The notes beneath the pieces were generated by a model. That model was not told where the DNA came from and did not search any database. It was given only the letters and a program-made list of their open reading frames with translations. From positions 1-56,397 of the IMG/VR virus record IMGVR_UViG_3300044846_004564: a stretch of DNA of 56,397 nt. The stretch is one strand, 5' to 3'. How positions within the stretch are numbered: position 1 is the stretch's first letter; every line of letters begins with the position of its first letter. The stretch comes from a virus. This document shows positions 20,060 to 44,475 of this stretch, in pieces. Both the position numbers and the translations under genes were made by a program.

Positions 20060-22239
20060 TGGCGGAAAGTTCGTATTCAATAAGTTTAACAGGTGATTGT
20101 ACAAATAGTTCATTAGGAGCTGCGCTAATTACTTTAGTTGGCTCAAGTCCGTATACAATCTATTGGGTAAATAATGTATTACCATCGGCAACTTTTTCAG
20201 GAAGTTCTTATTCTGTAACAGGATTAAGTACGGGTACTTACGGATTTAATATTACAGCTTCAACTATTCCGATTAATGAAGTTATAGGACCTGTATATTT
20301 TAATATAGTTTCAGCAAGTACTGCATATATTAACACATCTGATTTTGTAACATGTCAACCTGATAGTTCATATTTAACAGTTGTAACCACAGGAACGACT
20401 AATGGGGTAATTGACAATACTCAAGGAACATTTGTTGGGGCAACAATTAATTTATATAAAGACTATGTATACTATGCTTCCGCAACTTCGGTTAATACCG
20501 CATATTCTTTTATAAATTTATCTGAAGGTATGTATTACGCTCAGGTAACAGGGGATGGTAATTGCCCTTGTGAAACAGAATCTGTGATAATACATACTAA
20601 TCCAAATTTACTTGATTTTGGATTATATACAATTGATAATCCAGCATGTTCACAACAAAGTGGTAAAATATACGTTACAGGTTTAACAGGTGTTTCACCA
20701 TTCATTTATCAGTGGTCACCTACTGTTGGTGGTACAGGTGATACATTTGTAACTGGGCTAACTCAAGGCTCGTACAATTTAACTGTTATAGATGCGAATG
20801 GGTGTAGTTTAACTAAAATAACAACTATTACAAATGCTGAACCGATATCGTTTATATCTTATACAACCACACCACCAACTTGTTTTAATGCTGATGGGAG
20901 TATAACGTTTAATATTACAGGTGGAACGGCTCCGTATTTTTATTTATTAAGTAATGGTGATTCAGTTACAACATATGGTACATCTGTAACATTTAATAAT
21001 ATTGGGTCAGGAAGTTATACTTTAACAGTTACGGATGTTTCGTTATGTAGTCTCTCAACATCAGTTGATTTCTTAGTTCCAAGAAGTTTTTCATTGGTAT
21101 CTGAAACAGTTTCAAACTCACAATGTTCGTATAATAGTGGGTCAATAACTGTTACATTATTAGGTGGGACACCTCCATTTATATATTCATTAAGTAATAA
21201 TAGTGGTGTGACAACAACTAATACGTCAACACTTCAAACCAATACATTTAACAGTTTAGAGTCGGGTACATATACTTTAACAATTAATGATAGTAGTAGT
21301 GCTTGTACTTATACTAATAATATTACAGTATTAAATGATACATCATTTAATTTTTCTATTACAGGAAATAGTACTTATTGTGGTCTTAATGATGGTTCTA
21401 TCAATATATCTGTAACTCCAAGTTATACATCTTCAACATTTTATACGTATTCACTATCAAACGGGGCTAGCTCATACCCGACAACTTCAACGACATATAC
21501 CTTTACTAGTTTACCTGCAGGTAATTACGATGTAACTATTGAAAATCTTTCAGGATGTACTCAAACTACATCAACTACAATTGATTATTTGGCACCTTAT
21601 CAATTTGCGTTATATGGTACTGATTGTATAAATGGTAGTGGTGGTACGATAAGTGTTTTATTAAATGAAAGTACTGGGCCTTTTAACTTTATTTGGAGTG
21701 ATAATGTTAATGGTCAAATTGGTACATATATTACAGGTTTAACTGCTGGTACTTATGTATTAACTGTTAGCGGTACAAGTAATTGTGAAACAACTAAATC
21801 AATTGATATTAGTTGTAACCCATTAAGAACTGCTAGCTCAACTTACAAGTATACGATTGGTAATAAAACATATCTACCTTCATCAATATTTAATTTTACA
21901 AAAATGTTAAATGAGGGATATTCTTCATTAACAACAGGACATGAGGATTGTAAACTTAAATATGCTAAATTTAATTGTGATATAGAACTTGACGGAACGG
22001 TTTATTCAGGTACTTTCTTTACAACAACATCTTTATCTAATTCACCGACAGTAAACGCATTTAAGACAGTTATTGATGCATTAATCAATACTATACCTGA
22101 TATTAAATCTTATGAGGTTAATTTATTGACAAATACCATCAGTATTGAATCAGATGTTGTTGGTGGTGTTGAAGTTTATAAAGATGATGTATTAACTATA
22201 TCGGTAAGAATGGATTATAGTATATCTTGTCGCACTTAA
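20059..22239 (+). CDS. Adhesin-like tail protein with SprB-type repeats
   Basis: 726 aa. Residues about 195-585 are five tandem modules of 70-80 aa with the pattern 'tGGt-PPY-Y-S...L-aGtY-vtV-D-nGC' (for example FVTGLTQGSYNLTVIDANGC and GGTAPYFYLL), and the N-terminus holds a weaker copy. This is the signature of SprB repeats from the Flavobacterium johnsoniae gliding adhesin and related Bacteroidetes surface proteins. Cys recurs at module ends. A distinct C-terminal domain (about 587-726) is alpha/beta and lacks the repeat. Start ATG 20059 overlaps the previous stop by one base, tying it to the baseplate operon, so a virion location is likely. Role inferred: receptor contact or spacer. It was probably acquired from, or shared with, the host lineage. 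Confidence 0.72.
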   Translation: MAESSYSISLTGDCTNSSLGAALITLVGSSPYTIYWVNNVLPSATFSGSSYSVTGLSTGTYGFNITASTIPINEVIGPVYFNIVSASTAYINTSDFVTCQPDSSYLTVVTTGTTNGVIDNTQGTFVGATINLYKDYVYYASATSVNTAYSFINLSEGMYYAQVTGDGNCPCETESVIIHTNPNLLDFGLYTIDNPACSQQSGKIYVTGLTGVSPFIYQWSPTVGGTGDTFVTGLTQGSYNLTVIDANGCSLTKITTITNAEPISFISYTTTPPTCFNADGSITFNITGGTAPYFYLLSNGDSVTTYGTSVTFNNIGSGSYTLTVTDVSLCSLSTSVDFLVPRSFSLVSETVSNSQCSYNSGSITVTLLGGTPPFIYSLSNNSGVTTTNTSTLQTNTFNSLESGTYTLTINDSSSACTYTNNITVLNDTSFNFSITGNSTYCGLNDGSINISVTPSYTSSTFYTYSLSNGASSYPTTSTTYTFTSLPAGNYDVTIENLSGCTQTTSTTIDYLAPYQFALYGTDCINGSGGTISVLLNESTGPFNFIWSDNVNGQIGTYITGLTAGTYVLTVSGTSNCETTKSIDISCNPLRTASSTYKYTIGNKTYLPSSIFNFTKMLNEGYSSLTTGHEDCKLKYAKFNCDIELDGTVYSGTFFTTTSLSNSPTVNAFKTVIDALINTIPDIKSYEVNLLTNTISIESDVVGGVEVYKDDVLTISVRMDYSISCRT

Positions 22240-22266: not shown

Positions 22267-23271
22267 ATGAGTTTAGTAACAATAAATAGTTTGGGAGGAA
22301 TACCTCCTTATGTTATTTCAGTTTGTGACATATTTCAATACTCTTGTCAAACTGTGACAACAATATATGATTATATTCCACCATCTGTTAGTTTTAATAT
22401 TCCGAGTCCATATTCATCGGCTCCAAAAGTTTTAATTAAAATAGTCGATTCTACAGGATGTATTTTCACACAAGAATATATGTGTGTAACACCTACTCCA
22501 ACCCCAAGTATTACTCCAAGTGTCACCCCGACAATTTCTTTAACTCCTTCAAATACTCCAACACCAAGTATTACACCATCATTTACACCTACACCGAGTA
22601 TCACACCAAGTATTACACCTACACAAACAGTTACACCATCACATACCCCAACACAAACAATTACTCCAACAGTTACAAGAACTCCAACACCTACAGTTAC
22701 ACCTGACACTCCTATTTATGCTTATTTGTTCATTGAACCATACTCAGGTTCTGCTAGTGTTGGTTCTTACATGAATTCACTTGGTTCTAATTTTTATGGA
22801 TTTACAAATACTACTAAACCAAGTAGTTCGGCTAGTACATTTGATTTAGACATGAACAAATATGTTAACTTCTCAGGATGGACAACAGGATTATTTCCAA
22901 ATATTATAAAACAATTAGTACCATCGGCAAGTAGTGGACTTGATTCATACGGTAACCCATATCTTAAATATAATTTCCCAACAACAAAAGTACCTGAAAA
23001 TACGGTTGGATGTAAAGCTTGGTACACTTGGATAATACCAATTAGCAGAACCAATAATCAATACCAAGTTGAGATTGATTTGGGAATAGTTAATCCAAAT
23101 GTCTTTACAAGTGTAAAGACGGAACCGACAATTTACGCTAATACATTTACTTATACAGGTAGTACTATTGCAAATACAACATACAGGGTTTACACAACAT
23201 ACCCATCAAATACATTTGAATTGGATAATACTTATGACCTTTATTTTAGAGGAAGTAAGGTTGATATATAA
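22267..23271 (+). CDS. Modular adhesin: 72-aa module + TPT linker + YAY-EP domain
   Basis: 334 aa in three parts. Residues 1-74 are a small Cys-containing beta module ([16 protein letters not shown]... [17 protein letters not shown]) that also occurs as free proteins at 45394 and 53288. Residues about 75-148 are a mucin-like linker of T-P-T/S-x-T-P units. Residues about 150-334 start with [14 protein letters not shown] and match the C-terminal domain of the protein at 33484 (YAYVFAEPQDSSAS). The next gene is a G-x-S fibre protein, the same pair order as at 33484/34723. Probably a virion adhesin or fibre adaptor with an extended, possibly glycosylated neck. No enzymatic motif is visible. Confidence 0.72.
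22490..22710 (+). repeat. Thr-Pro mucin-like linker repeat
   Basis: About 74 codons of T-P-T-P-S-I-T-P type units. Codons vary (ACT/ACA/ACC, CCA/CCG/CCT), so conservation is at the protein level and not from recent slippage. Related tracts occur at 26250, 33916 and, in inverse orientation, 52340. Confidence 0.85.
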
Positions 23272-23280
23272 TTATAGTAA

Positions 23281-25278
23281 ATGAGTTTCCCATATAAAAA
23301 TCCAATATCGTCTATCCAACTAAATGGAACACAAAGTGTACCAAGAAACAATACGTATGGTACTACTTTCAGTGTTAATAATACGGGTGGTTATATGGAG
23401 GTTTTCAGTTTATCTGACCTTTATTATACAATACCATCGGGAACAACGGGAAGTATTGAATATTCGGGTAATACTATTCCTATTGAGTTTACAAAAGGAA
23501 CGGGAACAGCTTGGTCACCTGATGTAATTACTTTGGCTTCAGATAATATTTCATCAGGTAGAAGACGACTTGGTATGTTGGCTTATGTTTATGAGGTTGA
23601 CCAAGTTTACCAATATCATATTAATGATTACGAGACGTTATTTAATGCTGCGACTGCTAGTACGGGATGCGCTCAAGTATCTGATTTTGGAACAACGATA
23701 AATAATAAAACTGCTGCGGGTCAGTCGTTTATTAATTCTTGGACTGCTAACACTATTGAAGATGTTAGTGGTGCAACATATAGTACTGCGGCATGGAGAA
23801 AGTTTTCGACAGGAACTGGAGGAGGTTCAGGATTTACGTCAGTTAGAATAAATAATGTTAGTCAATTTACGTCATCACCATATAGTTATATTAATTTTAG
23901 TGGTGTTAATGTTGATATATCATCAGTTGGAAACAATACGATTGTATTATCGGCAAGTACTAGCGGAGGTGGTGGAGGAAGTGGTTCGTCAGGTAGTAGT
24001 GGTAGTTCAGGAACATCGGGAACTAATGGTAGTTCAGGTTCTAGCGGGATTAGTGGTTCTTCAGGTACTAGTGGTAGTTCAGGTTCTGCAGGAACATCGG
24101 GGAGTTCGGGTTCTACAGGTTCGTCAGGAACAAGTGGTAGTAGTGGAACTTCAGGTAGTTCTGGTACATCTGGTTCAAGTGGTAGTAGTGGTTCTTTAGG
24201 AACATCAGGAAGTAGTGGTACCTCAGGTAATGGTGGGTCATCGGGAACAAGTGGTTTAGATGGGATAAGTGGAACGTCAGGTTCTTCAGGGTCAAGTGGA
24301 AGTACTGGCTCTTCAGGAACTAGCGGAACATCAGGTTTAAGTGGTTCTTCAGGAACTTCAGGTAGTTCTGGTACATCAGGTTCATCGGGTAGTTCCGGTT
24401 CTGCCGGAACATCAGGTACAGGATTTACCACAATCACAAGTCCGGGTAGTAATAGAGTATTAACATCTGATGGGACATCTAATGCTGCGGTTGCTCAGGC
24501 TAGAATGACTTTTGATGGTACTACATTATCAGTTACAGGTAATACAAGTGTTAATGGTAATATAAGTACTACAGGTGTAACATCTTTTGGTAACGGAACA
24601 TTTACAAAGGCGGGGTCAGCTACTGGTGATGTTCTTCTTGATAATAATAGTACAGATACTCCGGGTGTTTTGTTTTATTATGCTAATAATTCAAACTTTG
24701 GTATTGATAGTTTTAATGGGTCATTTGATGTTCTAAGTGGACAGTTAGTTCGTATCACAAATAATTTAAATGAAGCAGGAGGTGCGGTAAAAATGGCTAT
24801 AGATACCACAGGTAATGTGGTATTTACAGGATTTATAAAGGCTAATGCGTGGAGAGCCGGTCAGGTAATTAACGATATTATTTTGAGTAATACTGAGGTA
24901 ACTGTTAGTACTACAACTATAGCTACCAGTAATTCGGATACTGATTTTGTTACTTATAGTTATACACCATTAAGTTCTACAAGTTATTTAGTAATACATT
25001 ATCATTTAGCATCTTTTGATTTTACTTCTGGTACAGGTAATGATTCATACATATCTAGAATAAAGGTTGATGGTGGTGAAATAACCTATTCAGTACAAAG
25101 CACGGTTAATGGATTTCGTACAGGTGTTTTATTTCCATTAACGGGTAGATACACTAACTCTAATACTACCGCAAAATCGATAGTAGTTGCATGTCGTAGA
25201 AGTTTTGCGGATGATAATATCACAATAGTAAATTCATCTACTTCAATGTGGTTAAGAATAACAGAAGTTGCAAGATAA
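23281..25278 (+). CDS. Fibre protein with G-x-S collagen-like stalk
   Basis: 665 aa. Residues 1-230 are a head domain (FPYKNPISSIQLNGTQSVPR...) homologous to the start of the 2,435-aa protein (IPYQNPISASQITGPFSVAR); both contain SGRRRLGM. Residues about 233-380 are Gly-x-Ser triplets (x = S, T, A, N, L) with glycine every third residue as in collagen, but with no proline. Residues about 380-665 are a beta-rich C-terminal region, first resembling the 'TSDGT...FDGTTLSVTGN' motif of long phage fibres and then a jelly-roll-like tip (SYLVIHYHLASFDF). Likely a trimeric side or tail fibre; the tip would bind receptor. It is the shorter partner of the gene at 34723. Confidence 0.75.
   Translation: MSFPYKNPISSIQLNGTQSVPRNNTYGTTFSVNNTGGYMEVFSLSDLYYTIPSGTTGSIEYSGNTIPIEFTKGTGTAWSPDVITLASDNISSGRRRLGMLAYVYEVDQVYQYHINDYETLFNAATASTGCAQVSDFGTTINNKTAAGQSFINSWTANTIEDVSGATYSTAAWRKFSTGTGGGSGFTSVRINNVSQFTSSPYSYINFSGVNVDISSVGNNTIVLSASTSGGGGGSGSSGSSGSSGTSGTNGSSGSSGISGSSGTSGSSGSAGTSGSSGSTGSSGTSGSSGTSGSSGTSGSSGSSGSLGTSGSSGTSGNGGSSGTSGLDGISGTSGSSGSSGSTGSSGTSGTSGLSGSSGTSGSSGTSGSSGSSGSAGTSGTGFTTITSPGSNRVLTSDGTSNAAVAQARMTFDGTTLSVTGNTSVNGNISTTGVTSFGNGTFTKAGSATGDVLLDNNSTDTPGVLFYYANNSNFGIDSFNGSFDVLSGQLVRITNNLNEAGGAVKMAIDTTGNVVFTGFIKANAWRAGQVINDIILSNTEVTVSTTTIATSNSDTDFVTYSYTPLSSTSYLVIHYHLASFDFTSGTGNDSYISRIKVDGGEITYSVQSTVNGFRTGVLFPLTGRYTNSNTTAKSIVVACRRSFADDNITIVNSSTSMWLRITEVAR
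23980..24420 (+). repeat. G-x-S tripeptide repeat (short copy)
   Basis: About 147 codons of Gly-x-Ser. It includes the peptide GLDGISGTSG, which recurs near the end of the giant repeat (about 41281), linking the two tracts by descent. Confidence 0.88.
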
Positions 25279-27130: not shown

Positions 27131-27994
27131 ATGGCAACATCACGACCTTTTGCATATAATACAGGCTCAACAATTTCAGGGACAGAACAAGTTGGAAGTA
27201 TTGCTATTGGATACCCAACAAGTGGTTTTACATCCACAGGTTTAAGATGGTGGAATGGGCCTGATGAAGATTTGGGATATGTTATTGCTCACACCGTACC
27301 GTCAGGAACACAACCAAATCCTGTTGGAGTTCCTGCTTATATCGGTTTTTGGAGAACACCAAGTAAGACAGATAATAACTTTATTAGTTTATCTCAGTAT
27401 GTATCAAGTTTTACCGGAACACCACAAACATTTGCAAGTGCTTCAGCGGCTAAGACATGGTTAAACTCGGCGGGATATTGGACATCTTGGGATTTAAGTT
27501 ATACTGCAGGAGTATTTAAAACAACTTATAGTGGGTACTTTAATGATAATGTTAATTTCTTTGCAACCGCAACTCCCGCATCAGTAGGTGGAAATCCTGC
27601 GACTTCAGTACAAACCACCGAGATAACAGAACCCCCAACCAGTGACGGTGAGAATTTCAGTTGTCAATGGTTAGGTTATTTCAAACCAACTACTACAGAA
27701 ACTTACACATTCTTTACTTCATCTGATGATGCTTCCTATGTTTGGGTTGGTAGTAATAGTATTTCAGGATTTACAACAACAAACTCAACAGTTAATAACG
27801 GTGGATTACATGGGACACAAGAACGTTCAGGTACAATTGCCTTAACTGCTGGTACATATTATCCGTTACGAGTACAATTTGGAGAACTAAGTGGTGGTGA
27901 CGTGATGACTTTTAGTTATTCAACTCCGACTATAACAAAAACAACCAACGTAACAGGTTTAATTTTTTATAATTTGGTAACAAGCGGATTTTAA
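27131..27994 (+). CDS. PA14-like adhesin domain protein
   Basis: 287 aa. Residues about 125-275 match the PA14 fold: FKTTYSGYFNDNVNFF, then WLGYFKPTTTETYTFFTSSD with DDASYVWV, and later GTIALTAGTYYPLRVQFGE ending in MTFSYSTP. This is the usual 'G.f...tG.Ytf...sDDg..l.i.......G....L.aG..y.i.v.y.e' pattern. PA14 modules bind carbohydrate in adhesins and glycosidases. The N-terminal 110 residues (FAYNTGSTISGTEQVGSIAI) probably attach it to the virion. It is the last gene before a 70-base AT-rich gap and the glycosyltransferase run. Confidence 0.75.
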   Translation: MATSRPFAYNTGSTISGTEQVGSIAIGYPTSGFTSTGLRWWNGPDEDLGYVIAHTVPSGTQPNPVGVPAYIGFWRTPSKTDNNFISLSQYVSSFTGTPQTFASASAAKTWLNSAGYWTSWDLSYTAGVFKTTYSGYFNDNVNFFATATPASVGGNPATSVQTTEITEPPTSDGENFSCQWLGYFKPTTTETYTFFTSSDDASYVWVGSNSISGFTTTNSTVNNGGLHGTQERSGTIALTAGTYYPLRVQFGELSGGDVMTFSYSTPTITKTTNVTGLIFYNLVTSGF

Positions 27995-28064: not shown

Positions 28065-29309
28065 ATGAAAATTTTTATACAAGTTGCCTCTTACAGAGAC
28101 CCCCAACTAATCCCAACTATACAGTCAGCATTGGAAAATGCTAAACGACCTGAAAACTTAGTTTTTGGTATTGCTCGTCAGTTTCATCCTGATGATAATT
28201 TTGATAATTTAGATGAATATAGGAATGATGAAAGATTTAGAATAATCGATATTCCATACACCGAATCCAAAGGAGCTTGTTGGGCAAGAAATCAAATACA
28301 ACAAGTATATGGTAAGGAAACTTACACTCTTCAAATTGACTCACACATGAGGTTTGCTCAAAATTGGGATGATGAGATGATTAAGATGGTTAAACAACTT
28401 CAAAAGAAAGGATATAAGAAACCTTTATTAACAGGTTATGTTTCATCCTTTGACCCTGACAATGACCCCAACCTACGTGTTAACGAACCATGGAGAATGG
28501 CGTTTGATAGATTTATTCCTGAAGGTGCGGTTTTCTTTTTACCTGAAACAATTCCTGGTTGGCAAAATTTAACTGAACCTGTTACCGCAAGATTTTACTC
28601 GGCTCACTTCTGTTTTACTCTTGGAAAATTTGCTAAAGAAGTTCAACACGACCCTGAGTTTTATTTTCATGGTGAAGAGATTTCAATCGCTGCAAGAGCA
28701 TACACTCATGGATATGATTTATTCCACCCACATAAAGTTTTAATTTGGCATGAATATACTCGTAAGGGTAGAACTAAACAATGGGATGACGATAAACAAT
28801 GGGTTGATAAGAATAATTTTGCTCATAAGAAAAATCGTTCTCTATTCGGTATGGATGGTGAGGAAGATATGAATCACGGGAAGTATGGGTTTGGTAAAGT
28901 TAGAACTTTAAGAGATTATGAAAAATATTCAGGTCTTTTATTTTCAAAGAGAGCCGTTCAACAATATACGTTAGATAAAGGTTATCCACCAAATCCAAAT
29001 AACTTCAATTCAGAAGAAGAATGGTTAAAGTCATTTACATCGGTATTCAAACATTGTATTGATATTGGGTTTACTCAAGTACCTGAAAAGGATTATGACT
29101 TTTGGGTTGTTGCGTTCCATAATGAATTAGATGAAACCATTTACAGACAAGATGCTGATAAAGGTGAGGTTGATAGAATGTTAAGAGACCCTGATGGTTA
29201 TTGTAAAGTTTGGAGAGAGTTCTTAACTGATTCAAAACCTAAATATTGGGTTGTTTGGCCTCACTCGGAATCTAAAGGATGGTGTGATAGAATAACAGGA
29301 AATTTATAA
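28065..29309 (+). CDS. GlcNAc-transferase-like glycosyltransferase (PF11397/GT60-like)
   Basis: 414 aa. It starts MKIFIQVASYRDPQL, the classic first strand of the PF11397 family (Skp1 GnT1-like and trypanosome mucin GlcNAc-transferases, CAZy GT60). Supporting motifs: KGACWARNQ (69-77), a DxH metal motif in LQIDSHMRF (D92, H94), HGEEIS (202-207) and LIWHEY (226-231). Known members transfer alpha-GlcNAc to hydroxyproline or Thr/Ser of proteins, so a polypeptide substrate is plausible. No signal peptide or membrane segment is present, so it would act in the host cytoplasm. It heads five transferase-like genes placed between two blocks encoding Thr/Ser-rich fibres. Sugar and acceptor are inferred from the family. 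Confidence 0.82.
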   Translation: MKIFIQVASYRDPQLIPTIQSALENAKRPENLVFGIARQFHPDDNFDNLDEYRNDERFRIIDIPYTESKGACWARNQIQQVYGKETYTLQIDSHMRFAQNWDDEMIKMVKQLQKKGYKKPLLTGYVSSFDPDNDPNLRVNEPWRMAFDRFIPEGAVFFLPETIPGWQNLTEPVTARFYSAHFCFTLGKFAKEVQHDPEFYFHGEEISIAARAYTHGYDLFHPHKVLIWHEYTRKGRTKQWDDDKQWVDKNNFAHKKNRSLFGMDGEEDMNHGKYGFGKVRTLRDYEKYSGLLFSKRAVQQYTLDKGYPPNPNNFNSEEEWLKSFTSVFKHCIDIGFTQVPEKDYDFWVVAFHNELDETIYRQDADKGEVDRMLRDPDGYCKVWREFLTDSKPKYWVVWPHSESKGWCDRITGNL

Positions 29310-29312
29310 GAT

Positions 29313-30023
29313 ATGAAATTTACATTTGCTACTTTTTGTTTTGGTGAAAGATATTATAACCAAGTTAATAGATTTATTGGTGATATCGTAGAATCGGATT
29401 ATAAAACAAATTTGGTTGTTATTACCGATGACCCAAGTAAGATTAATAATCAAGAATTTGTTCACACTTTCAACATTAATGATTTTAATCCAAATTATTT
29501 GGAGTATGCTAAAAACTACTATGATTTTGATTTTTCAGTTAAGAGATATTCGTTAAGAGCTGCTTTAAGTATTGGTTTTACTAAAATGATTTTAGTTGAT
29601 TGTGATATGAGAGTTAACCCATCTTTCTTTAATGAAGAAAAGATTTTAGGAGCGTTTGATGAGAATTGTTTATCAGGGCCAGTAACATATAATTTTAACG
29701 AACAAGTTCATACCAATAGTGAATTAGGTAGACGATTACTTGAGTATGAAAAGTATTTCAATCATGAGGTTAATAAAGATAAGTTGGAGGTTATGCCTGA
29801 AGATTGTATCCAATACTTGAGTATTGATGAAGATAAGTTTAATAGTTTTTTAGATACTTGGGACAAGTGTATCGAATATAAAAAAGAAAAAGGTTTGAGA
29901 AACATACCCGCAGGTAACATAGACGAGATGTGTTTCTCGGCGTTATCTAATGGAATTGAAATAAAAAATAACGCTTATAAAGCATCAAATATAATATACG
30001 CAGAACATGACAAATGGTACTAA
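29313..30023 (+). CDS. Glycosyltransferase, GT-A fold with DxD motif
   Basis: 236 aa. It shows the GT-A pattern: an N-terminal strand FTFATFCFGERYY, then SVKRYSLRAALSIGFTKM running into ILVDCDMRV, where D96 and D98 form the DxD sugar-nucleotide/metal motif. A later segment with GNIDEMCFSAL fits an acceptor-side helix. This is closest in style to GT8-like enzymes. The gap to the upstream transferase is 3 bases and its end overlaps the next gene by 17 bases, so it is part of a tightly packed operon. Donor and acceptor are not identifiable. Confidence 0.72.
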   Translation: MKFTFATFCFGERYYNQVNRFIGDIVESDYKTNLVVITDDPSKINNQEFVHTFNINDFNPNYLEYAKNYYDFDFSVKRYSLRAALSIGFTKMILVDCDMRVNPSFFNEEKILGAFDENCLSGPVTYNFNEQVHTNSELGRRLLEYEKYFNHEVNKDKLEVMPEDCIQYLSIDEDKFNSFLDTWDKCIEYKKEKGLRNIPAGNIDEMCFSALSNGIEIKNNAYKASNIIYAEHDKWY

Positions 30024-30861
30024 AATAATTTCAGCAATTTATGAATTAAAATATGTTGAAGGGATTAATAGTGAAAGATATAAAAATTTTCCATTATTGG
30101 TTGCAACGATTAAAAACATAATTTATCCTGAATATCGTTACGTAATTTATACTGACCAAAATTCATATGATAAGTTTAATTTAAAGTATGAATTTAATTT
30201 CCCAAATGTTGAATTTAAATTTAAAGAATTAAATACATCTGAAACTTGTGAATTAATTGACAGAATTAGAACTCAAGAATTATCAGGTGGAATTAACTAT
30301 GATAGAATTTATTGTGTAAACAATTATTTGGAAGTTGTTTTAAATAAACTTCAATTCTTAATTGATGAGTCACATGATTGTGATAATATCTTTTGGATTG
30401 ATGCTGGTTTGATTGGAACATCTTGTCATGACGGGTGGAGAGATTATATGGCTCCGTTAATTAACTCAAAAAACTTTTTGGATAAGGTGGTTGATAAGAT
30501 AAATCAACATGGATTTATCCATTTAAAAGGTAATTCAATTGTCATGAATTATGAAACGGTTGCTAAGTTTAACGACCTATTTGGTGTTGAATTAAAGGTT
30601 GTTCCTGGATGTCTATTTGGTGGAACATCAGAAAAAGTTAGACATATTTTAGACGGATATTTAGACATTTTTAATCAATACTTAACCACACATAACCAAC
30701 TTATTAGTGAACAAGAGGTTCTTACGGCTATTACAGGTAAACATTCGGATGAATGTCACGCTTTTGAATTTGGTGATTGGTTAGACTTACAAAAAGCGTT
30801 TTTAGACATTTTAGACATTTATGATGAGACAAAATATGTAAGGGAGAAGTGTTATGTTTAG
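30007..30861 (+). CDS. HtrL/YibB-like putative glycosyltransferase
   Basis: 284 aa. The hallmark is IFWIDAGLIG (W130-G134), shared with the next-but-one gene (LFWIDAGLTN) and typical of HtrL/YibB-like proteins, where the Asp replaces the DxD position of GT-A enzymes. GCLFGGTSEKVRHIL and ISEQEVLTAI, further downstream, match the 'GG.-GG....-.-.E....' end pattern of such transferases. It overlaps the previous gene by 17 bases and the next by 8. YibB of E. coli lies in a lipopolysaccharide locus but its reaction is unproven, so the substrate here is unknown. Confidence 0.65.
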   Translation: MTNGTKIISAIYELKYVEGINSERYKNFPLLVATIKNIIYPEYRYVIYTDQNSYDKFNLKYEFNFPNVEFKFKELNTSETCELIDRIRTQELSGGINYDRIYCVNNYLEVVLNKLQFLIDESHDCDNIFWIDAGLIGTSCHDGWRDYMAPLINSKNFLDKVVDKINQHGFIHLKGNSIVMNYETVAKFNDLFGVELKVVPGCLFGGTSEKVRHILDGYLDIFNQYLTTHNQLISEQEVLTAITGKHSDECHAFEFGDWLDLQKAFLDILDIYDETKYVREKCYV

Positions 30862-31417
30862 TCTTAACATTGTTTGTACTTCAATTGGGAGAGAAACTCT
30901 ACCAAGATTAATTGAGTCATTCAAAGACCAATTAGACCCAACAGATATTTTTACAATAATCTCAGATATTAATCACGACTTTGTTTCAGAAGTATTATCA
31001 AGATATGAGTTTAAATTCAAAGTTAATCACATATTAAATCAAGGGGAACAAAAATGGAAATACGGACATCCGTTAATTAATGAAAACATTAATTCATTAG
31101 AAGGTGATTTTATAATGTTTGCCGATGATGATGATAGATACACTGAAGACGCATTTAAAGTAATCAAAGAAACTATTAAAGATAAAAACAAATTATACAT
31201 ATTCAAACACAATTGGTTAGGTGATATTAATTGGAGATTAAAAGATTTCACAAGAGGTAATGTAGGGAAATGTATGGGAGTGATTCCAAACACACATAAT
31301 TTACCGATGTTCCAAGAAGATGTTTTTGGGGATGTTATTTTTTATGAAGAGATAGGTCAAATGTTTGAAAGTGAATTTGTTGATTACATAATCTATAAAG
31401 TTAGACATACGGAATGA
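30854..31417 (+). CDS. GT2-like glycosyltransferase, small
   Basis: 187 aa. It opens FSLNIVCTSIGRETLPRLIE, the GT2 first strand and helix, and carries DFIMFADDDDRYTEDAF with the acidic run D91-D94 at the usual DxD place. It is short for GT2 (typically about 250 aa or more): the acceptor domain after the DDDD strand is only about 90 residues. It may be a minimal transferase, or it may depend on a partner encoded next to it. It overlaps the upstream gene by 8 bases and the next by 4 (ATGA). Confidence 0.68.
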   Translation: MFSLNIVCTSIGRETLPRLIESFKDQLDPTDIFTIISDINHDFVSEVLSRYEFKFKVNHILNQGEQKWKYGHPLINENINSLEGDFIMFADDDDRYTEDAFKVIKETIKDKNKLYIFKHNWLGDINWRLKDFTRGNVGKCMGVIPNTHNLPMFQEDVFGDVIFYEEIGQMFESEFVDYIIYKVRHTE

Positions 31418-33084
31418 GTAATATTACATTAGTTACAGGATTGTGGAATATTGGAAGAGAAAATCTTGAAGAAGGTTGGTCTCGTTCTTTTTCACATTAT
31501 TTAGAAAAATTTGAACAACTATTAAAAGTTGAAGAAAACTTAATAATTTTTGGTGAAAAGGAATTGGAGGAATTTGTTTGGGAAAGAAGAGACCAAAGTA
31601 ATACCCAATTTATTTTAAGAGATAAGAGTTGGTTTGTTGAAAATGACTTTTACAATAAAATACAAGAAATTAGAAATAATCCTGAATGGTATAATCAATC
31701 AGGGTGGTTAAAAGAATCAACACAAGGTAGATTGGAAATATACAATCCACTTGTTATGTCAAAAATGTTTATATTAAATGATGCAAGGATTTTTGATAAG
31801 TTTAATTCAGAGTTTTTATTTTGGATTGACGCTGGACTTACAAATACTGTTCACCCCGGATATTTCACACATGATAAGGTGTTAGATAATTTAAGTAAGT
31901 ATATAGATAAGTTTACATTTGTTTGTTTTCCATACGATGCAAGTAATGAGATACACGGATTTTCATATCCAAAGATTAATCAGTGGGCTGAAGATGATGT
32001 AAAAAAAGTTGCTCGTGGTGGATTTTTTGGAGGTCCTAAAGAAACCATATCACAGATGAATGGTGAATACTATAACCTATTGAATGATACACTATCAAGT
32101 GGGTACATGGGAACGGAAGAGTCAATATTTTCAATAATGGTTTATAAGTTAAGTGAATACATAAATTATTTTGAAATTGAATATAATGGTTTATTTGGGA
32201 AATTCTTTGAGGATTTAAAAGATGATGTTTTAGTTAAAAAGACAGAGTTTGTTAAAATTCAAAATGATTTAGATATAGATAAAGTTGCGTTGTATGTAAT
32301 AACATTCAATTCACCAAAACAATTTGAAACATTAATTAAATCTATGATTGAATATGATAGGGATTTCTTGGAAAAACCAAAGAAATTTTTATTGGATAAC
32401 TCTACAGATTTATCAACAACTGAAGAATACTTAAAACTTTGTAAAGAATATGACTTTGAACATATTAAAAAAGATAACATAGGTATTACAGGTGGAAGAC
32501 AATGGACTGCGGAACACTTTGATGAAACGGGGTTGGACTATATGTTATTCTTTGAGGATGATATGTTTTTTTACTCACAAAAAAATGAAGTGTGTAGAAA
32601 TGGGTTTAACAGATATGTAAGTAATCTATATCAAAAAAGTTTAGAGATAGTTAACAAAGAAAACTTTGATTTTTTAAAATTAAATTTTTCAGAGTTTTAT
32701 GGTGATAATAGTACTCAGTGGAGTTGGTATAATGTTCCACAAAATTTCAGAGAACAACATTGGCCAAAAAATCCAAGATTACCTCAACATGGTTTAGACC
32801 CAAACGCTCCAAAAACAAAATTCAACGAGATAAAAACACACAAAGGTTTACCATATGCTTCAGGAGAAATTTATTTGTGTAACTGGCCTATAATCCTTTC
32901 AAAAAGTGGGAGTTATAAATGTTATTTGGAAACAAAATATCAACACCCATATGAGCAAACTTTAATGTCTCACAACTTCCAAAACACAATTAAAGGTAAG
33001 TTAAAACCAGGTATTTTATTACTCACTCCTACCGAACATGATAGATTTGAACATTATGATAGTAATTTAAGAAAAGAATGTTGA
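31414..33084 (+). CDS. Bifunctional glycosyltransferase-like protein (HtrL/YibB-like + GT2-like)
   Basis: 556 aa with two transferase-like halves. Residues 1-270 begin ITLVTGLWNIGRENLEEGW and carry LFWIDAGLTNTVHPGYF (WIDAG at 137-141) and KVARGGFFGGPKE, as in HtrL/YibB-like proteins. Residues about 288-556 begin KVALYVITFNSPKQFETLIK, have LLDNSTD and NIGITGGRQW, and an acidic DxD-type motif MLFFEDDMFF near residue 380, as in GT2 enzymes. Fusion of two enzymes suggests sequential sugar additions on one acceptor. It is the last of the five-gene run, followed at once by the second adhesin block, whose motif-marked start is at 33114. Confidence 0.7.
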   Translation: MSNITLVTGLWNIGRENLEEGWSRSFSHYLEKFEQLLKVEENLIIFGEKELEEFVWERRDQSNTQFILRDKSWFVENDFYNKIQEIRNNPEWYNQSGWLKESTQGRLEIYNPLVMSKMFILNDARIFDKFNSEFLFWIDAGLTNTVHPGYFTHDKVLDNLSKYIDKFTFVCFPYDASNEIHGFSYPKINQWAEDDVKKVARGGFFGGPKETISQMNGEYYNLLNDTLSSGYMGTEESIFSIMVYKLSEYINYFEIEYNGLFGKFFEDLKDDVLVKKTEFVKIQNDLDIDKVALYVITFNSPKQFETLIKSMIEYDRDFLEKPKKFLLDNSTDLSTTEEYLKLCKEYDFEHIKKDNIGITGGRQWTAEHFDETGLDYMLFFEDDMFFYSQKNEVCRNGFNRYVSNLYQKSLEIVNKENFDFLKLNFSEFYGDNSTQWSWYNVPQNFREQHWPKNPRLPQHGLDPNAPKTKFNEIKTHKGLPYASGEIYLCNWPIILSKSGSYKCYLETKYQHPYEQTLMSHNFQNTIKGKLKPGILLLTPTEHDRFEHYDSNLRKEC

Positions 33085-33113: not shown

Positions 33114-33482
33114 ATGGAATTTTTTATTAACAAAGGTGCAACACTGCCTGTTCTTAAAATGCAAGTGGTTAAAGATGGTATTGCTGACATAACAGAGTTT
33201 ATGTCATTAATAGAAAACTCGTTGATTTATTTTTCCATGATAGATGTTAAAACGGGAGGTTACAAGATTCTGAATAAGAAAGGAGGGTTTGTTGAAAAGA
33301 CATTTATTGACCCAAACGCTGAGACAGAGTACTATGTTTATTATAAATTCACTTCAAGCGATACAAGTAGAGAGGGACTTTATGAAGGAGAGTTTGTTTT
33401 TATCACTGATACAGGAACTTATATTTTACCAATCAGAGAAAAACTTACGATAAAAATTGGTAATAGTTACGTATCTATTTAA
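33114..33482 (+). CDS. Small virion protein, paralogue of the next gene's N-terminal domain
   Basis: 122 aa. It starts MEFFINKGATLPVLKMQVVK and aligns throughout with residues 1-120 of the following protein (MEWFIKKNSTLPVFQVEISK). Shared positions include EYYVYYKFTS/TYYVNYQFTS and the closing LPIREKLTI/IPLPQKIYV. The pair is therefore a tandem duplication in which the downstream copy gained a TPT linker and a C-terminal domain. The fold looks like a beta sandwich, probably an attachment or capping module of a fibre. The stop is 1 base before the next start. Confidence 0.68.
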   Translation: MEFFINKGATLPVLKMQVVKDGIADITEFMSLIENSLIYFSMIDVKTGGYKILNKKGGFVEKTFIDPNAETEYYVYYKFTSSDTSREGLYEGEFVFITDTGTYILPIREKLTIKIGNSYVSI

Positions 33483-33483
33483 T

Positions 33484-34692
33484 ATGGAATGGTTTATTAA
33501 GAAAAATTCAACGTTACCAGTTTTCCAAGTTGAGATATCAAAAGACGGAAGAAGTGATTTTGGTTTAGATGAAAATATTTCGGGTAATACAATTTTAATT
33601 TCGGTATATGATGAAGTTAATAAGAAATATATTGTAGCGTCTAAAGAATGTTATATTACAACAAGTGCGTCTACTGTTAATCCTTTAGATATTACTTATT
33701 ATGTAAACTATCAATTTACAAGTAGAGAAACTAAAAATGAGGGTAAGTTTTTAGTTCAGTTTTTAAAACAATCATCTCAGGGTATTGTTATTATACCATT
33801 ACCTCAAAAAATTTATGTAAGTGTTCTTAGTAGTTTTAGTTTAAACTCTTACTCTTATCCGACTAATAATCCTTACATTATTGATAGACCATGTTGTAAC
33901 GCACCAGCTCTACCTGCAACACCTACACCAACACCATCTATTACTCCAAGTGTTACTCCAACAATGTCTTTAACACCATCACTAACTCCAACTCTCACAC
34001 CTACAACAACTACAACACCTACATTTACTCCTACACCATCTATTACAACACCACAATATTATGCTTATGTATTCGCAGAACCACAAGATTCTTCGGCAAG
34101 TGGTTCGTTGTATGGATTAGGAAGTTATATGTATTACTTATCGGATGGTATAACACCTGATACTAATGTTAATTGGTACGGATGGGGTAACTCGGGAGCT
34201 CTTCCATTACCAACAAATCCAAACTACAGTTATATGATGAACAAATACTCATCATACTCAGGATTTACAGGTGGAACAGGAAACTTTGTTAAACCTACAG
34301 ACTTAAAAGGTGCGTTAAATCAATTCCCAAATACTATCAATGATAGTTTTGGATGTTTAATTAACCAATACACTTTTGAAACAATAGAAGTTAATAATAG
34401 TGATATTAACACTAGTTTACAGTACATGTATACGATTTGGATACCACTTGATGGTGTCGGAGGAACTTTAAATAATATGAGTGTAAATGTTGGTTATCAA
34501 TCACAACCTTGTGACTTTGATATTTTAGCAACTCCTGACCCTAAAATTTCGGTTGGGGATATTACAATAACTCCAGGTGGAGCGATACCTGCGGGAACTT
34601 ATAGAGTATTATACTTATCAAACGATGGATTGTTACCTCCAAAACTTCCTGATAATAACAATTATTATTTCAAAGGGGTGTATAAAACCTAA
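33484..34692 (+). CDS. Modular adhesin: MEWFI domain + TPT linker + YAY-EP domain
   Basis: 402 aa from ATG 33484; an upstream in-frame ATG at 33457 lies inside the preceding gene and would break the N-terminal match with it. Residues 1-120 are the beta module shared with the preceding protein, and a Cys pair (RPCCNAP) follows. Residues about 145-190 are a Thr-Pro linker. Residues about 195-402 begin YAYVFAEPQDSSAS and are homologous to the end of the protein at 22267; both also share MNKY...F-GWTTG/FTGGTG and Y-WI-P segments. It precedes the giant G-x-S protein just as 22267 precedes the shorter one, so the two gene pairs are a duplicated cassette with a swapped N-terminal module. Confidence 0.72.
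   Translation: MEWFIKKNSTLPVFQVEISKDGRSDFGLDENISGNTILISVYDEVNKKYIVASKECYITTSASTVNPLDITYYVNYQFTSRETKNEGKFLVQFLKQSSQGIVIIPLPQKIYVSVLSSFSLNSYSYPTNNPYIIDRPCCNAPALPATPTPTPSITPSVTPTMSLTPSLTPTLTPTTTTTPTFTPTPSITTPQYYAYVFAEPQDSSASGSLYGLGSYMYYLSDGITPDTNVNWYGWGNSGALPLPTNPNYSYMMNKYSSYSGFTGGTGNFVKPTDLKGALNQFPNTINDSFGCLINQYTFETIEVNNSDINTSLQYMYTIWIPLDGVGGTLNNMSVNVGYQSQPCDFDILATPDPKISVGDITITPGGAIPAGTYRVLYLSNDGLLPPKLPDNNNYYFKGVYKT
33916..34053 (+). repeat. Thr-Pro mucin-like linker repeat
   Basis: About 46 codons of [13 protein letters not shown] type, sharing the peptide [13 protein letters not shown] with the 22490 tract. Confidence 0.82.
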
Positions 34693-34722: not shown

Positions 34723-37700
34723 ATGGCAATACCGTATCAAAATCCAATAAGTGCGTCCCAAATTACAGGACCTTTCAGTGTAGCGAGAACAAGTCCATAC
34801 GGAACCAATTTTAATGTTTTAAATGTTGGTGGATGGCAAGAGGCGGCATACCTTACTAATTTAGGTTTAACATTTAGTGGGCAAGGACAACAACAATTAA
34901 GTGTTAATAATATACCTATTAATATTAACATTGGTAACGGTACATTTTCTCCAACATATTTAACTTTAAATTCTGACAATTTCTCTTCGGGTAGAAGAAG
35001 ATTGGGTATGATTGTTTGGGTTAATGAAACTGAAACGGCATATCAATATCAAATAGACAATTACAATGATTTATGGGATGCTGCAGTAAGTGCTAATTCT
35101 GTAACTCAATTATCTTACGAAACTATTATAAAGAATAATACACCTGAAGGTCAGGCATTTATTAATGCTTGGACAGGCTCAACTATTGAAGGTGTTAGTG
35201 GTGTTACAAGAGAAAATGCGAGATGGAGAGTTTTTGCTCAAGGTACTGAATTAACGGGTGGTACTTATTTTTCAGGTACAAGTACATTAGAATTATATAA
35301 TAGTGATGGAACTATTATTTCTGTAACAGGTATTACGGCATCTGGTTCTAATGGTAGTTCTGGAACATCAGGTTCTGCGGGTACAAGTGGTTCTTCAGGA
35401 AGTGCTGGTTCTTCAGGTAACTCTGGTTCTTCAGGTTCAGCAGGTACAAGTGGAACTTCAGGTAGTTCTGGTTCATCAGGTAGTTCTGGTTCTGCGGGTA
35501 CATCAGGAACAAGTGGAACGTCTGGTTCATCAGGGGATAGCGGTTCTTCGGGAAGTGCTGGAACTAGCGGTAGTTCAGGTAGTGCTGGAACATCAGGTAT
35601 TAATGGTGTTGATGGTGCAAGTGGAACATCAGGTACAAGTGGTTCATCAGGACTATCAGGTACTGGAGGTTCTTCGGGTACATCAGGAACATCTGGCTCC
35701 TCAGGTTCATCAGGTTCTTCAGGAAGTGTGGGAACAAGTGGAACGTCAGGTTCTTCGGGAAGTTCTGGTACAAGCGGAACTTCAGGAACTTCAGGTTCAA
35801 GTGGTTCATCGGGAAGTTCAGGTTCAAGTGGTTCATCGGGTACATCAGGTAGTACTGGTACTAGTGGTAGTAGTGGAACAAGCGGAACGTCGGGTTCATC
35901 AGGTTCTGCGGGAAGTAGTGGTTTATCAGGTAGTGTTGGAACATCTGGCTCAAGTGGTAGTTCAGGTAGTTCTGGTTCATCAGGTACATCTGGCTCAAGT
36001 GGTAGCTCTGGTTCAACAGGTTCGTCAGGTAGTAGTGGTATAACTGGGTCTTCAGGTACGAGTGGTAGTTCTGGCACATCAGGTTCATCTGGTAGTTCAG
36101 GTTCTTCAGGTTCATCTGGTAGTTCAGGTTCTTCAGGTAGTACTGGTTCATCAGGAACTAGCGGAACATCAGGAACATCAGGTACAAGTGGTAGTTCAGG
36201 TTCTACAGGAACATCGGGTTCTACAGGAACATCGGGTTCATCAGGTAGTAGTGGCTCAAGTGGAAGTTCAGGATTGACAGGTTCATCAGGAACATCGGGT
36301 TCATCAGGGACATCGGGTTCATCAGGTAGTTCTGGTTCAAGTGGTAGTAGCGGAAGTACAGGGTCTTCGGGCACAAGTGGTAGTTCTGGTACATCAGGTT
36401 CATCAGGAAGTTCAGGTTCATCAGGTTCTAGCGGTAGTGTTGGAACTTCGGGAACAAGTGGTTCAAGTGGAAGTTCAGGTTCTTCAGGAAGTGTAGGAAC
36501 ATCAGGTACAAGTGGAAGTTCAGGTTCGTCTGGCTCAAGTGGAAATACAGGTTCAAGTGGAACGAGTGGTTCATCAGGTACATCTGGCTCAAGTGGTAGT
36601 TCAGGTTCGTCTGGCTCAAGTGGTTCAAGTGGAAGTTCAGGTTCATCTGGAAGTGTAGGAACATCAGGTACAAGTGGTAGTTCAGGTTCTTCAGGTAGTT
36701 CAGGTGTTAATGGTTCTTCAGGGACTAGTGGTAGTTCGGGAACATCTGGTTCTTCAGGAAGTTCGGGTTCATCAGGTTCTAGTGGTAGTTCAGGAACATC
36801 TGGCTCAAGCGGGTCTTCTGGTTCAAGTGGAAGTACTGGTTCTTCAGGAAGTGCAGGTACATCGGGTAGTGTAGGAACTAGCGGTAGTTCTGGTTCATCT
36901 GGTTCTTCAGGTAGTACTGGCTCAAGTGGTACTTCAGGTTCTTCGGGAAGTTCTGGTACTAGTGGTTCATCAGGTAGTGTAGGTACTAGTGGTTCATCAG
37001 GTAGTTCTGGTTCAAGTGGTAGTAGCGGAAGTACAGGGTCTTCTGGTACAAGTGGGAGCTCAGGAACATCTGGTACAAGCGGTAGTTCTGGGTCATCTGG
37101 TTCAGTTGGTACAAGCGGTTCATCAGGTAGTGTTGGAACATCTGGTTCATCAGGTTCTGTTGGTACTTCAGGAACATCGGGTTCATCAGGTAGTACTGGT
37201 TCAAGTGGAAGTTCAGGAAGTAGTGGTAGTGTAGGAACAAGTGGTTCTTCAGGGACATCTGGCTCAACAGGTACTTCAGGAACATCAGGTTCAAGTGGGT
37301 CTTCAGGTAGTTCGGGTTCATCAGGAAGTTCAGGTACAAGCGGAACATCAGGTTCAGTAGGAACAAGTGGTTCATCGGGAAGTTCAGGGTCAACAGGAAC
37401 TTCAGGTTCAAGTGGGTCTTCAGGTAGTTCAGGAAGTAGCGGAACATCTGGTTCTAGTGGAAGTGTTGGAACTTCTGGTACATCAGGAACAAGTGGTTCA
37501 TCGGGAAGTTCTGGTTCTGCCGGTACAAGTGGAAGTGTAGGAACAAGTGGTACTTCAGGTTCATCTGGCTCAAGTGGAAGTTCAGGTTCAACAGGTAGTT
37601 CAGGTACTAGCGGTTCATCTGGAAGTTCTGGTTCTGCAGGTACAAGTGGAAGTTCTGGTTCTTCAGGTAGTACGGGTTCAAGAGGAACTAGCGGAACATC

Positions 37701-40700
37701 AGGAAGTTCTGGTTCTGTTGGAACTAGTGGAACGTCTGGTTCAGTAGGAACTAGCGGAACATCTGGAACAAGTGGTTCATCAGGTTCTAGCGGTAGCGCT
37801 GGAAGCTCAGGAACGTCAGGTTCTAGCGGTAGCACAGGTTCAAGTGGTTCTACTGGCACGTCAGGTTCTTCAGGAACAAGTGGTTCTGTAGGTACAAGCG
37901 GAACATCTGGTTCCTCAGGAAGTGTAGGTACTTCAGGTACTAGTGGAAGCTCAGGAAGTGTAGGAACATCTGGTTCAAGTGGTACTACTGGTACCTCAGG
38001 AACATCAGGTAGTTCAGGTTCTAGCGGAAGTTCAGGTTCAAGTGGAACTAGTGGTAGTTCAGGAAGTTCTGGTTCATCGGGTAGTAGCGGTAGTTCTGGT
38101 AGTGTAGGAACATCTGGTTCTTCAGGAAGTTCTGGTTCAAGTGGTTCATCCGGAAGTTCAGGTTCTACAGGTTCAAGAGGAACATCGGGTACTTCAGGAA
38201 CTAGCGGTTCAAGTGGAAGTACAGGAACTAGTGGTACATCAGGTTCAACGGGGACTTCAGGAACAAGTGGTTCAACTGGAACATCAGGTACAAGTGGAAG
38301 TACAGGGTCTTCAGGAAGCTCTGGTACGTCGGGTAGTGTAGGTACTAGCGGTAGTTCAGGCTCTAGCGGAAGTACAGGAACTAGTGGAACCTCTGGTTCA
38401 ACAGGGACTAGCGGTTCATCAGGTAGTTCAGGTTCAAGTGGAAGTTCAGGTAGTAGTGGTAGCGTTGGAACTTCTGGTACATCAGGTTCAAGTGGTTCTT
38501 CAGGAAGTGCAGGTTCTAGTGGAAGTACTGGAACCTCAGGAACATCAGGTAGTTCTGGTTCTTCAGGTAGTTCAGGTTCAAGTGGTAGTGTTGGAACATC
38601 AGGTTCATCGGGTAGTGTAGGTACTAGCGGTTCTTCTGGTTCAAGTGGAAGTTCAGGTTCTAGCGGAAGTACAGGGTCAAGCGGAACTAGTGGTAATTCA
38701 GGTTCGTCTGGTTCAAGTGGAAGTTCAGGTTCATCTGGAAGTGTAGGAACAAGTGGAACCTCAGGTTCAGTAGGTACAAGTGGTACATCAGGAAGTTCAG
38801 GCTCAAGTGGTAGTACGGGTTCATCTGGTACTAGCGGCTCTTCGGGAAGTACTGGGTCATCTGGAAGTTCAGGTTCAACAGGAACTAGCGGTTCTTCAGG
38901 AACATCAGGTAGTAGCGGTTCTAGTGGTAGTGCTGGAACAAGTGGTAGTTCTGGTTCTGTTGGTACATCTGGGTCAAGCGGAAGTAGTGGTTCATCGGGA
39001 AGTGTAGGCACATCCGGTTCTTCAGGCTCTAGCGGTAGTGCTGGAAGTTCAGGAAGTGTTGGTACATCAGGGACTAGTGGTAGTTCAGGTTCTTCTGGTT
39101 CAAGTGGTAGTGTTGGTACATCAGGTACTAGCGGTTCATCAGGTACTAGCGGTTCATCAGGGTCAAGCGGAACTAGCGGTAGTTCAGGTTCTAGCGGTTC
39201 TTCAGGAAGTTCTGGGTCATCTGGCTCTTCAGGTAGTACAGGTTCAAGAGGAACTAGCGGTACTTCAGGAACTAGTGGTAGTGTAGGTACATCCGGTTCT
39301 TCAGGTAGTTCGGGAACATCAGGAAGTAGTGGAAGTTCAGGTTCTGCAGGTACAAGTGGAAGTGTAGGAACATCTGGAACTTCTGGTTCAAGTGGGTCAT
39401 CAGGTTCAAGTGGTAGTGTTGGAACTAGCGGTTCATCAGGAACAAGTGGTTCGTCAGGTTCTAGCGGTAGTGCTGGAAGCTCAGGAAGTACTGGTTCATC
39501 AGGTTCTGCGGGAAGTGCTGGTACATCAGGGGTTAATGGTTCTTCAGGAACATCAGGTTCTGCTGGCTCAAGTGGAAGTTCAGGTTCTTCAGGTAGTTCG
39601 GGTTCAGTAGGTACAAGCGGAACTTCAGGTTCATCAGGTAGTGCTGGCTCGTCAGGGTCTAGCGGTTCTGTTGGTACTTCAGGTAGTAGTGGAACATCTG
39701 GAAGCTCTGGCTCAAGTGGTAGTGCGGGTTCATCAGGGAGTAGTGGAACTTCAGGTTCATCAGGAAGTTCAGGTTCAAGTGGTAGTACGGGGTCTTCAGG
39801 AAGTTCTGGTTCAACAGGTTCTAGAGGAACTAGCGGAACATCAGGTTCATCTGGAAGTGTTGGTACTTCAGGAACGTCAGGTTCAGTAGGTTCGTCTGGT
39901 TCTTCAGGAACTTCAGGTTCAGTAGGTACTAGTGGAACATCTGGAAGCTCTGGCTCAAGTGGTAGTGCGGGGTCATCAGGGAGTACTGGTACAAGTGGAA
40001 GTTCGGGTTCAACTGGTACTTCAGGTTCAAGTGGAAGTAGTGGCTCATCAGGTTCTTCAGGGAGTACTGGTACAAGTGGAACATCAGGTTCTAGTGGAAG
40101 TAGTGGTAGTTCAGGGTCATCTGGTTCTGCAGGTACATCAGGAAGTAGTGGAAGTTCAGGGTCTAGCGGTAGTTCTGGTTCATCAGGTACATCGGGAACT
40201 AGCGGAAGTTCAGGAACTTCAGGTAGTAGTGGGTCATCAGGTTCAACGGGTAGTTCAGGAAGTAGTGGAACAAGTGGTTCATCTGGTACTTCAGGTTCAT
40301 CTGGCTCAAGTGGTAGTACGGGTTCTTCAGGAAGCTCAGGCTCAAGCGGAAGTTCTGGTTCAACAGGTTCTAGAGGAACAAGTGGAACTTCTGGTTCGTC
40401 AGGAACTAGCGGAACGTCAGGAACATCAGGCTCAAGCGGAAGTGTTGGAACATCTGGTTCGTCAGGAAGTACAGGAACATCAGGTAGTGCTGGTTCTTCT
40501 GGCTCAAGTGGTAGTTCAGGTTCAAGTGGAAGTACTGGAACATCAGGTTCATCAGGTTCTAGCGGTAGTACTGGAAGCTCAGGAACGTCAGGTTCTGTAG
40601 GTACAAGCGGGACATCAGGAACTTCGGGAAGTACTGGTTCTAGTGGTAGTTCAGGAAGTTCTGGTTCATCGGGTAGTACAGGTACTTCAGGAAGCTCAGG

Positions 40701-43580: not shown

Positions 43581-43592
43581 TTTGTATGTAAT

Positions 43593-44465: not shown

Positions 44466-44475
44466 AAATTTAATT

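Follow-up and report, generated by a model that had tools for sequence, protein, structure and literature searches.

Within a 56,397-nt virus fragment from a freshwater phage (IMG/VR record IMGVR_UViG_3300044846_004564, positions 1 to 56,397; hereafter the window), five open reading frames (ORFs) on the + strand form a compact glycosyltransferase island, with a 3-nt gap after the first gene and overlaps of 17, 8 and 4 nt between the genes that follow. The window also codes for T4-type baseplate wedges, a ribonucleotide reductase, a primase and numerous fibre-like proteins, and we therefore consider it part of a large contractile-tailed phage. An earlier reading made without database searches (the sequence-only reading) had described five overlapping or abutting genes with glycosyltransferase motifs here, and the motifs are indeed present: gene 1 has DSH, gene 2 DCD, gene 3 WIDAG and gene 4 DDDD, while gene 5 has both WIDAG and EDD. 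The five-gene block recurs in numerous contigs, and the ratio of nonsynonymous to synonymous substitution rates (dN/dS), calculated against the viral locus L027, is about 0.08-0.2, well under 1, for all five genes. The island is therefore not a chance arrangement: its overlapping, co-oriented genes are real and evolve under purifying selection.

The first gene (28065..29309, +) encodes a glycosyltransferase of the GT60/PF11397 family, to which the sequence-only reading had already likened it. It matches the PF11397 profile at 232.4 bits (cut-off 21), and the D92-S-H94 motif (a DxH in place of DxD), HGEE and WHEY are invariant across gene 1 and 15 aligned relatives. Membership of the family is unambiguous, and the enzyme is predicted to be an initiator with an activity like that of the polypeptide alpha-N-acetylglucosamine (GlcNAc) transferases. 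At the other end of the island, gene 5 (GTe; 31414..33084, +) encodes a putative tandem GT-A enzyme, in which an HtrL_YibB-like WIDAG domain is joined to an EDD domain. The N-terminal domain matches PF09612 (HtrL_YibB, a family without known function) at 49.7 bits (cut-off 24.1), and D139 and E381-D382-D383 are invariant in 39 relatives. When PDB chain sequences were searched, gene 1 had no relative and gene 5 no meaningful match. Structure prediction, which had been proposed as a check for all five enzymes and was run on GTb (gene 2) and GTe, gave a GTe model with a predicted local distance difference test (pLDDT) score of 86.4, whose best Foldseek matches are the tandem enzymes LH3, R699, LARGE1 and COLGALT1, at low template modelling (TM) scores (0.22-0.34).

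The three genes in between are more diverse. Gene 2 (GTb; 29313..30023, +) encodes an exchangeable GT-A enzyme with a DCD motif; its model (pLDDT 85.7) has BoGT6a and the ABO transferases as best Foldseek matches, at a TM-score of about 0.6. It has no Pfam match and thus no GT6 sequence profile, and since it is the predicted fold alone that resembles GT6, we did not file GTb in that family. Gene 3 (GTc; 30007..30861, +), a WIDAG glycosyltransferase likewise without a Pfam match, is homologous to the first domain of GTe (profile similarity, hhalign 98.9%), and its family occurs in 66 of the 76 complete islands described below. The GT6-like fold of gene 2 and the similarity of gene 3 to the GTe N-terminal domain support their prediction as glycosyltransferases. 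Gene 4 (GTd; 30854..31417, +) encodes a short, exchangeable GT2-like enzyme with a DDDD motif, whose match to PF00535 (GT2) is marginal (24.8 bits, cut-off 23.3).

To compare the island across viruses, IMG/VR was scanned with gene 1, which yielded 399 relatives, of which 80 were kept; with phages XacN1 and RAS14 added, the set comprises 82 loci. A GT60 gene heads the island in all 82. In 76 of them the last gene is a GTe homolog with a length of at least 200 aa, while two more have one that is cut off at a contig end (78 in total); in the other four, no GTe homolog was seen within 10 kb. Between GT60 and GTe lie 1-13 cargo genes, together 295 ORFs in 62 families, and neighbouring genes are co-oriented in 369 of 371 pairs, with a median spacing of -4 nt. 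The alignment of the window with locus L008 locates the exchange: DNA identity is about 95% as far as the GT60 stop codon, nothing detectable is shared in mid-island, and identity is again 95% from the GTe start codon onwards. Locus L013 has identical breakpoints (92-93% identity). Four other loci (L014, L016, L027 and L076) have the island in common with the window but not the upstream genes. These patterns indicate that the middle is swapped and that the island also moves, as a unit, from one fibre context to another. In other words, the island consists of a constant first and last gene around a freely exchanged interior, with clean cassette swaps.

The exchanged cargo is rich in sugar-related functions. 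The commonest Pfam matches (132 cargo proteins) are to fucosyltransferase GT10, GT25, FkbM and other methyltransferases, GT7 and PLOD-type glycosyltransferases (the PLOD glycosyltransferase domain is matched by three proteins); others are to carbamoyltransferase, DegT aminotransferase, UDP-galactopyranose mutase and UDP-GlcNAc 2-epimerase. With NCBIfam, LegC- and PseC-like aminotransferases and a WcaF-type acetyltransferase were identified in addition. A simple detector found a membrane helix in none of the 295 cargo ORFs; as a control, the same detector was applied to six phage contigs and found 13-27 ORFs with a membrane helix in each. We regard the cargo as a set of glycan-building enzymes predicted to be soluble, and the lack of membrane helices fits a glycan that is built up in the cytoplasm on the soluble acceptor itself, without a lipid carrier.

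With regard to the acceptor, the sequence-only reading had pointed to Thr-Pro linkers and Gly-x-Ser (G-x-S) stalks encoded around the island, and had suggested surveying related phages for co-occurrence with the PF11397 gene. For Thr-Pro-rich (TPT) tracts, the association is seen in both directions. Each of the 14 whole contigs or genomes that carry PF11397 contains between 10 and 126 TPTPT-coding sites, compared with 0-2 in nine relatives that lack it (PA5oct, CBB, 121Q, a Salmonella jumbo phage, RaK2, GAP32, LR756508, Mel-JY01 and immuto). Conversely, among contigs fetched solely because they code for TPTPTPT, PF11397 is present in 8 of 16, against 0 of 14 fetched by the mirrored pattern (Fisher 0.003; not all of these contigs are independent, and many are fragments); it is present in 7 of the 10 TPTPTPT-fetched contigs with at least 20 TPTPT sites. 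Closer to the island, a TPT or G-x-x gene was found in 39 of the 44 loci with full flanks (not dereplicated).

A second line of evidence comes from bacteria. A scan of GTDB genomes provided 80 chromosomal or assembled GT60 loci. Among the 397 ORFs located no more than three genes from GT60, 21 are mucin-like (TPT), against none of 495 farther off. At least 23 loci contain markers of contractile injection systems. In Burkholderiales these are TssF, gp25-like TssE and VgrG of the type VI secretion system (T6SS); the others have gp25, hub, tube and sheath genes. In ten Burkholderiales genomes, the VgrG of the GT60 locus (L516-L525) has a long, fast-changing tail of Pro-flanked Ser/Thr repeats in ten of ten cases, whereas none of the 20 other VgrGs from the same genomes (L526-L545) has such a tail, including one that is 69% identical to the query (Fisher 3e-8). 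The repeat units of the tails in GT60 loci are varied ((PT)n, PPPTE, PPPSET, PPPSEE, PEPST, TPDE and EPPQTE), and PF11397 occurs only once or twice in each of these genomes, about 5-8 kb from the tailed VgrG. Three further GT60-linked VgrGs (L464, L467 and L478) have repeat tails containing Pro and Ser, and in Azospirillum a Thr-Pro-rich tract lies inside a tail sheath ORF close to the GT60 gene (L473:13127-15178). Saprospiraceae carry the GT60-GTe pair itself, in one chromosome directly adjoining a TPT-rich secreted protein that carries a Por sorting tail (L436:8504-13092). The link to VgrG tails in T6SS loci is thus an independent association of GT60 with Pro-Ser/Thr tracts. In a tree of GT60 proteins, moreover, phages fall in two separate places, beside Saprospiraceae and beside the T6SS clade, in addition to groups from T6SS and from extracellular contractile injection systems (eCIS); the association therefore does not rest on one lineage.

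In the window itself, three proteins are candidate acceptors, all encoded, like the other neighbours described here, on the + strand: a fibre-like protein (22267..23271) with a Thr-Pro tract at residues 70-152 (20 TP), a protein with two LamG-like domains (PF13385; 25248..27125) and a Thr-Pro linker at residues 324-400 (16 TP), and a fibre-like protein downstream of the island (33457..34692) with a Thr-Pro tract at residues 148-206 (15 TP). Two further neighbours are rich in Gly triplets: a Ser-rich, collagen-like tail fibre (23281..25278) with 51 G-x-x triplets, and a 2435-aa stalk (34723..42030) consisting nearly entirely of 658 G-(S/T)-x triplets; an acceptor role is unsupported for the former and, by co-occurrence, for the latter. 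The island had been said to lie exactly between two such blocks. The flanks are as described, but the fit is not exact: a PA14/GLEYA lectin-like protein (27131..27994) separates the upstream fibre block from the island, and a conserved 122-aa gene (33114..33482), possibly a fibre adaptor, stands right behind GTe, as it does in most loci. Elsewhere in the window, SprB-type repeats, known from the gliding adhesins of Bacteroidota, are found in two structural-looking proteins (20059-22239 and 45662-47692), and three successive, similar Gly-rich proteins (42678-45384) weakly match tail fibre and minor tail families. A 2084-aa ORF antisense to the stalk (35265-41519) is probably a mere by-product of the G-(S/T)-x repeat.

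Several published systems are relevant to the interpretation. Phage XacN1 encodes a homolog of GT60 (ORF334, 47% identity) and one of GTe (ORF330), in an island close to genes for baseplate wedges and to a giant ORF. Proteomics of its virions revealed at least two glycoproteins, for which phage enzymes were suggested as the source (PMC5852040); the mass spectra are public (PXD008065). That paper notes ORF328 and ORF334 as glycosyltransferases, while the operon, GTe, the acceptor tracts and the family-wide pattern went unrecognised there. As a separate observation, the XacN1 record contains six consecutive hypothetical genes distant from the glycosyltransferase island, all with Thr-Pro-rich tracts (124048-133104; L183), which are candidates for virion glycoproteins. 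At the level of the enzyme, the DxH motif and polypeptide Ser/Thr O-glycosylation are common to GT60 and GT27 (PMC7185993), and TcOGNT1, a GT60 member from T. cruzi, forms GlcNAc-alpha-Thr on mucin-like proteins (PMC9472816). The profile match and the DxH motif place the phage enzyme in the same family as TcOGNT1, which acts on mucin-like Thr, and as the Gnt1 of Toxoplasma and Dictyostelium, which acts in the cytosol; unlike these, it heads an exchangeable operon and is linked to virion fibres, and its activity is a predicted one.

At the level of the locus, a close parallel is formed by the serine-rich repeat protein (SRRP) glycosylation loci of Gram-positive bacteria (PMC6291802), which resemble the island in having the acceptor gene nearby, an initiating GlcNAc on Ser/Thr (as predicted here) and 2-10 variable extending glycosyltransferases; the 1-13 cargo genes near a gene for a Ser/Thr-rich candidate acceptor correspond to this arrangement. 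In contrast to SRRP loci, the island has GT60 as its initiator instead of the GtfA/GtfB pair (to which neither the five island genes nor the commonest cargo families have a match), no accessory Sec export, and a virion product, so that it would work like an SRRP system without being a member of the group. Mycobacteriophages likewise have phage-associated glycans on virion proteins (Freeman et al. 2023), which, as far as that study is described in PMC12619734, are located at the C-terminal ends of proteins of the capsid and the tail tube; here, the predicted sites are Pro-flanked fibre tracts, and GT60 and a variable cassette are involved. The moraphages (PMC12619734) are large aquatic phages in which four core orthogroups are putative glycosyltransferases whose function was left open.

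Based on this evidence, we think that the island is most likely a self-contained cytoplasmic O-glycosylation kit that places an exchangeable glycan on Pro-flanked Thr/Ser tracts of the phage's own fibres, with acceptor and sugars as we infer them in the following. GT60 would prime Pro-flanked Thr or Ser in the TPT tracts of virion fibre and adhesin proteins, and by family precedent the first sugar would be an alpha-linked GlcNAc. The genes that follow in the operon code for soluble glycosyltransferases and modifying enzymes, which would then lengthen the chain, and the tandem enzyme GTe may add two conserved sugars in two steps. We propose that the ends of the island are constant because they act on a shared substrate or core; since the middle is swapped between phages by recombination, related phages would show different glycans. 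The coat may serve protease resistance, stiff spacing, or evasion or mimicry. The sequence-only reading had already proposed that the enzymes decorate the phage's own fibres, and its Thr-Pro part is borne out by the two-way co-occurrence, the bacterial Pro-Ser/Thr contexts and the XacN1 glycoproteins, while its G-x-S part is not.

A number of points weigh against this interpretation. No glycan has been mapped to any TPT tract, and XacN1 also encodes a GT9 enzyme. GT60 members also modify hydroxyproline (PMC6939170), so that Pro instead of Thr could in principle be the site. PF11397 is lacking in three of the 10 contigs with at least 20 TPTPT sites, each of the three being a fragment of 68-100 kb, and the kinship of contigs within a group means that the Fisher values overstate independence. 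Finally, the nearest TPT gene lies 11 kb and 73 kb from the island in two of six large contigs, distances at which strict adjacency of a TPT gene had to be rejected as a rule.

Different substrates were also weighed. G-x-S collagen-like stalks could be the main acceptors, with the TPT tracts secondary or irrelevant: most X and Y positions of the 658 triplets in the window are Ser or Thr, the collagen-modifying enzymes LH3, COLGALT1 and mimivirus R699 come nearest to the predicted GTe fold, and PLOD domains occur in the cargo. The GTe TM-scores are low, however, and G-x-S ORFs are absent from three of six large GT60-bearing contigs and from the XacN1 stretches examined, whereas TPT tracts are present in 14 of 14; the VgrG tails, too, differ in repeat unit yet keep Pro-flanked Ser/Thr. 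We therefore consider this quite improbable and have set aside G-x-S stalks as general acceptors, although the stalk in the window may also be modified.

The enzymes might also act outside the virion proteins. A change of the host surface polysaccharide (lipopolysaccharide (LPS) or capsule) during infection, by which other phages are excluded, has been proposed for other phage glycosyltransferase clusters (PMC7824862), and GT10, GT25 and aminotransferases, all among the cargo, also build LPS. Yet the island sits in fibre regions and none of the 295 cargo ORFs encodes a membrane protein or flippase, which sets it apart from the serotype-conversion type (gtrA-gtrB-gtr) with its membrane flippase and membrane glycosyltransferase; moreover, the TPT co-occurrence and the VgrG tails would go unexplained, and this role is unlikely. 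Glycosylation of phage DNA bases against restriction is more unlikely still. Phages are known to glycosylate DNA bases, and the C-terminal domain of GTe weakly matches the beta-glucosyl-HMC-alpha-glucosyltransferase family (E 5e-5, 85 residues), but GT60 is a polypeptide-modifying family, and DNA modification would leave both the TPT link and the bacterial contexts unexplained. Within PF00303, Asn marks thymidylate synthases and Asp marks dCMP hydroxymethylases; the PF00303 proteins checked, from five relatives (several of the contigs being fragments, as is the 56-kb window, and other modification routes not having been searched), have the Asn of true, ThyA-like thymidylate synthases.

Fibre glycosylation as proposed above may extend beyond this phage. 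With somewhat less confidence, we favour the view that GT60 represents a general O-glycosylation system of contractile tail machines (phages, T6SS and eCIS), directed at Pro-flanked Ser/Thr tracts on fibres, VgrG and other tail parts, and taking the form, in phages, of a swappable “glycotype” in which a constant initiator and tandem extender enclose interchangeable cassettes. Indeed, the GT60 relatives beside Pro-Ser/Thr-rich spikes in bacterial machines suggest a widespread, unrecognised way of coating such structures. Phage virion glycosylation and variable adhesin glycosylation, as in SRRP systems (PMC6291802), are already known as kinds. The open-licence literature yielded no paper on GT60 together with VgrG or eCIS, and no description of a cassette-swapped system with GT60 as its basis that is linked to Thr-Pro fibres and common to T6SS and eCIS.

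To our knowledge, glycosylation of structural proteins is known from few phages, and it is rarely predictable from sequence. Here, one enzyme family appears to mark virion glycosylation and to point to the likely acceptor, namely Pro-flanked Thr/Ser tracts, and it appears to connect phage fibres with T6SS VgrG spikes and eCIS parts. If this is true, the islands would be a source of soluble cytoplasmic O-glycosylation enzymes usable in E. coli, and a coat glycan that is exchanged by cassette would bear on how these phages recognise their hosts and avoid their enemies.

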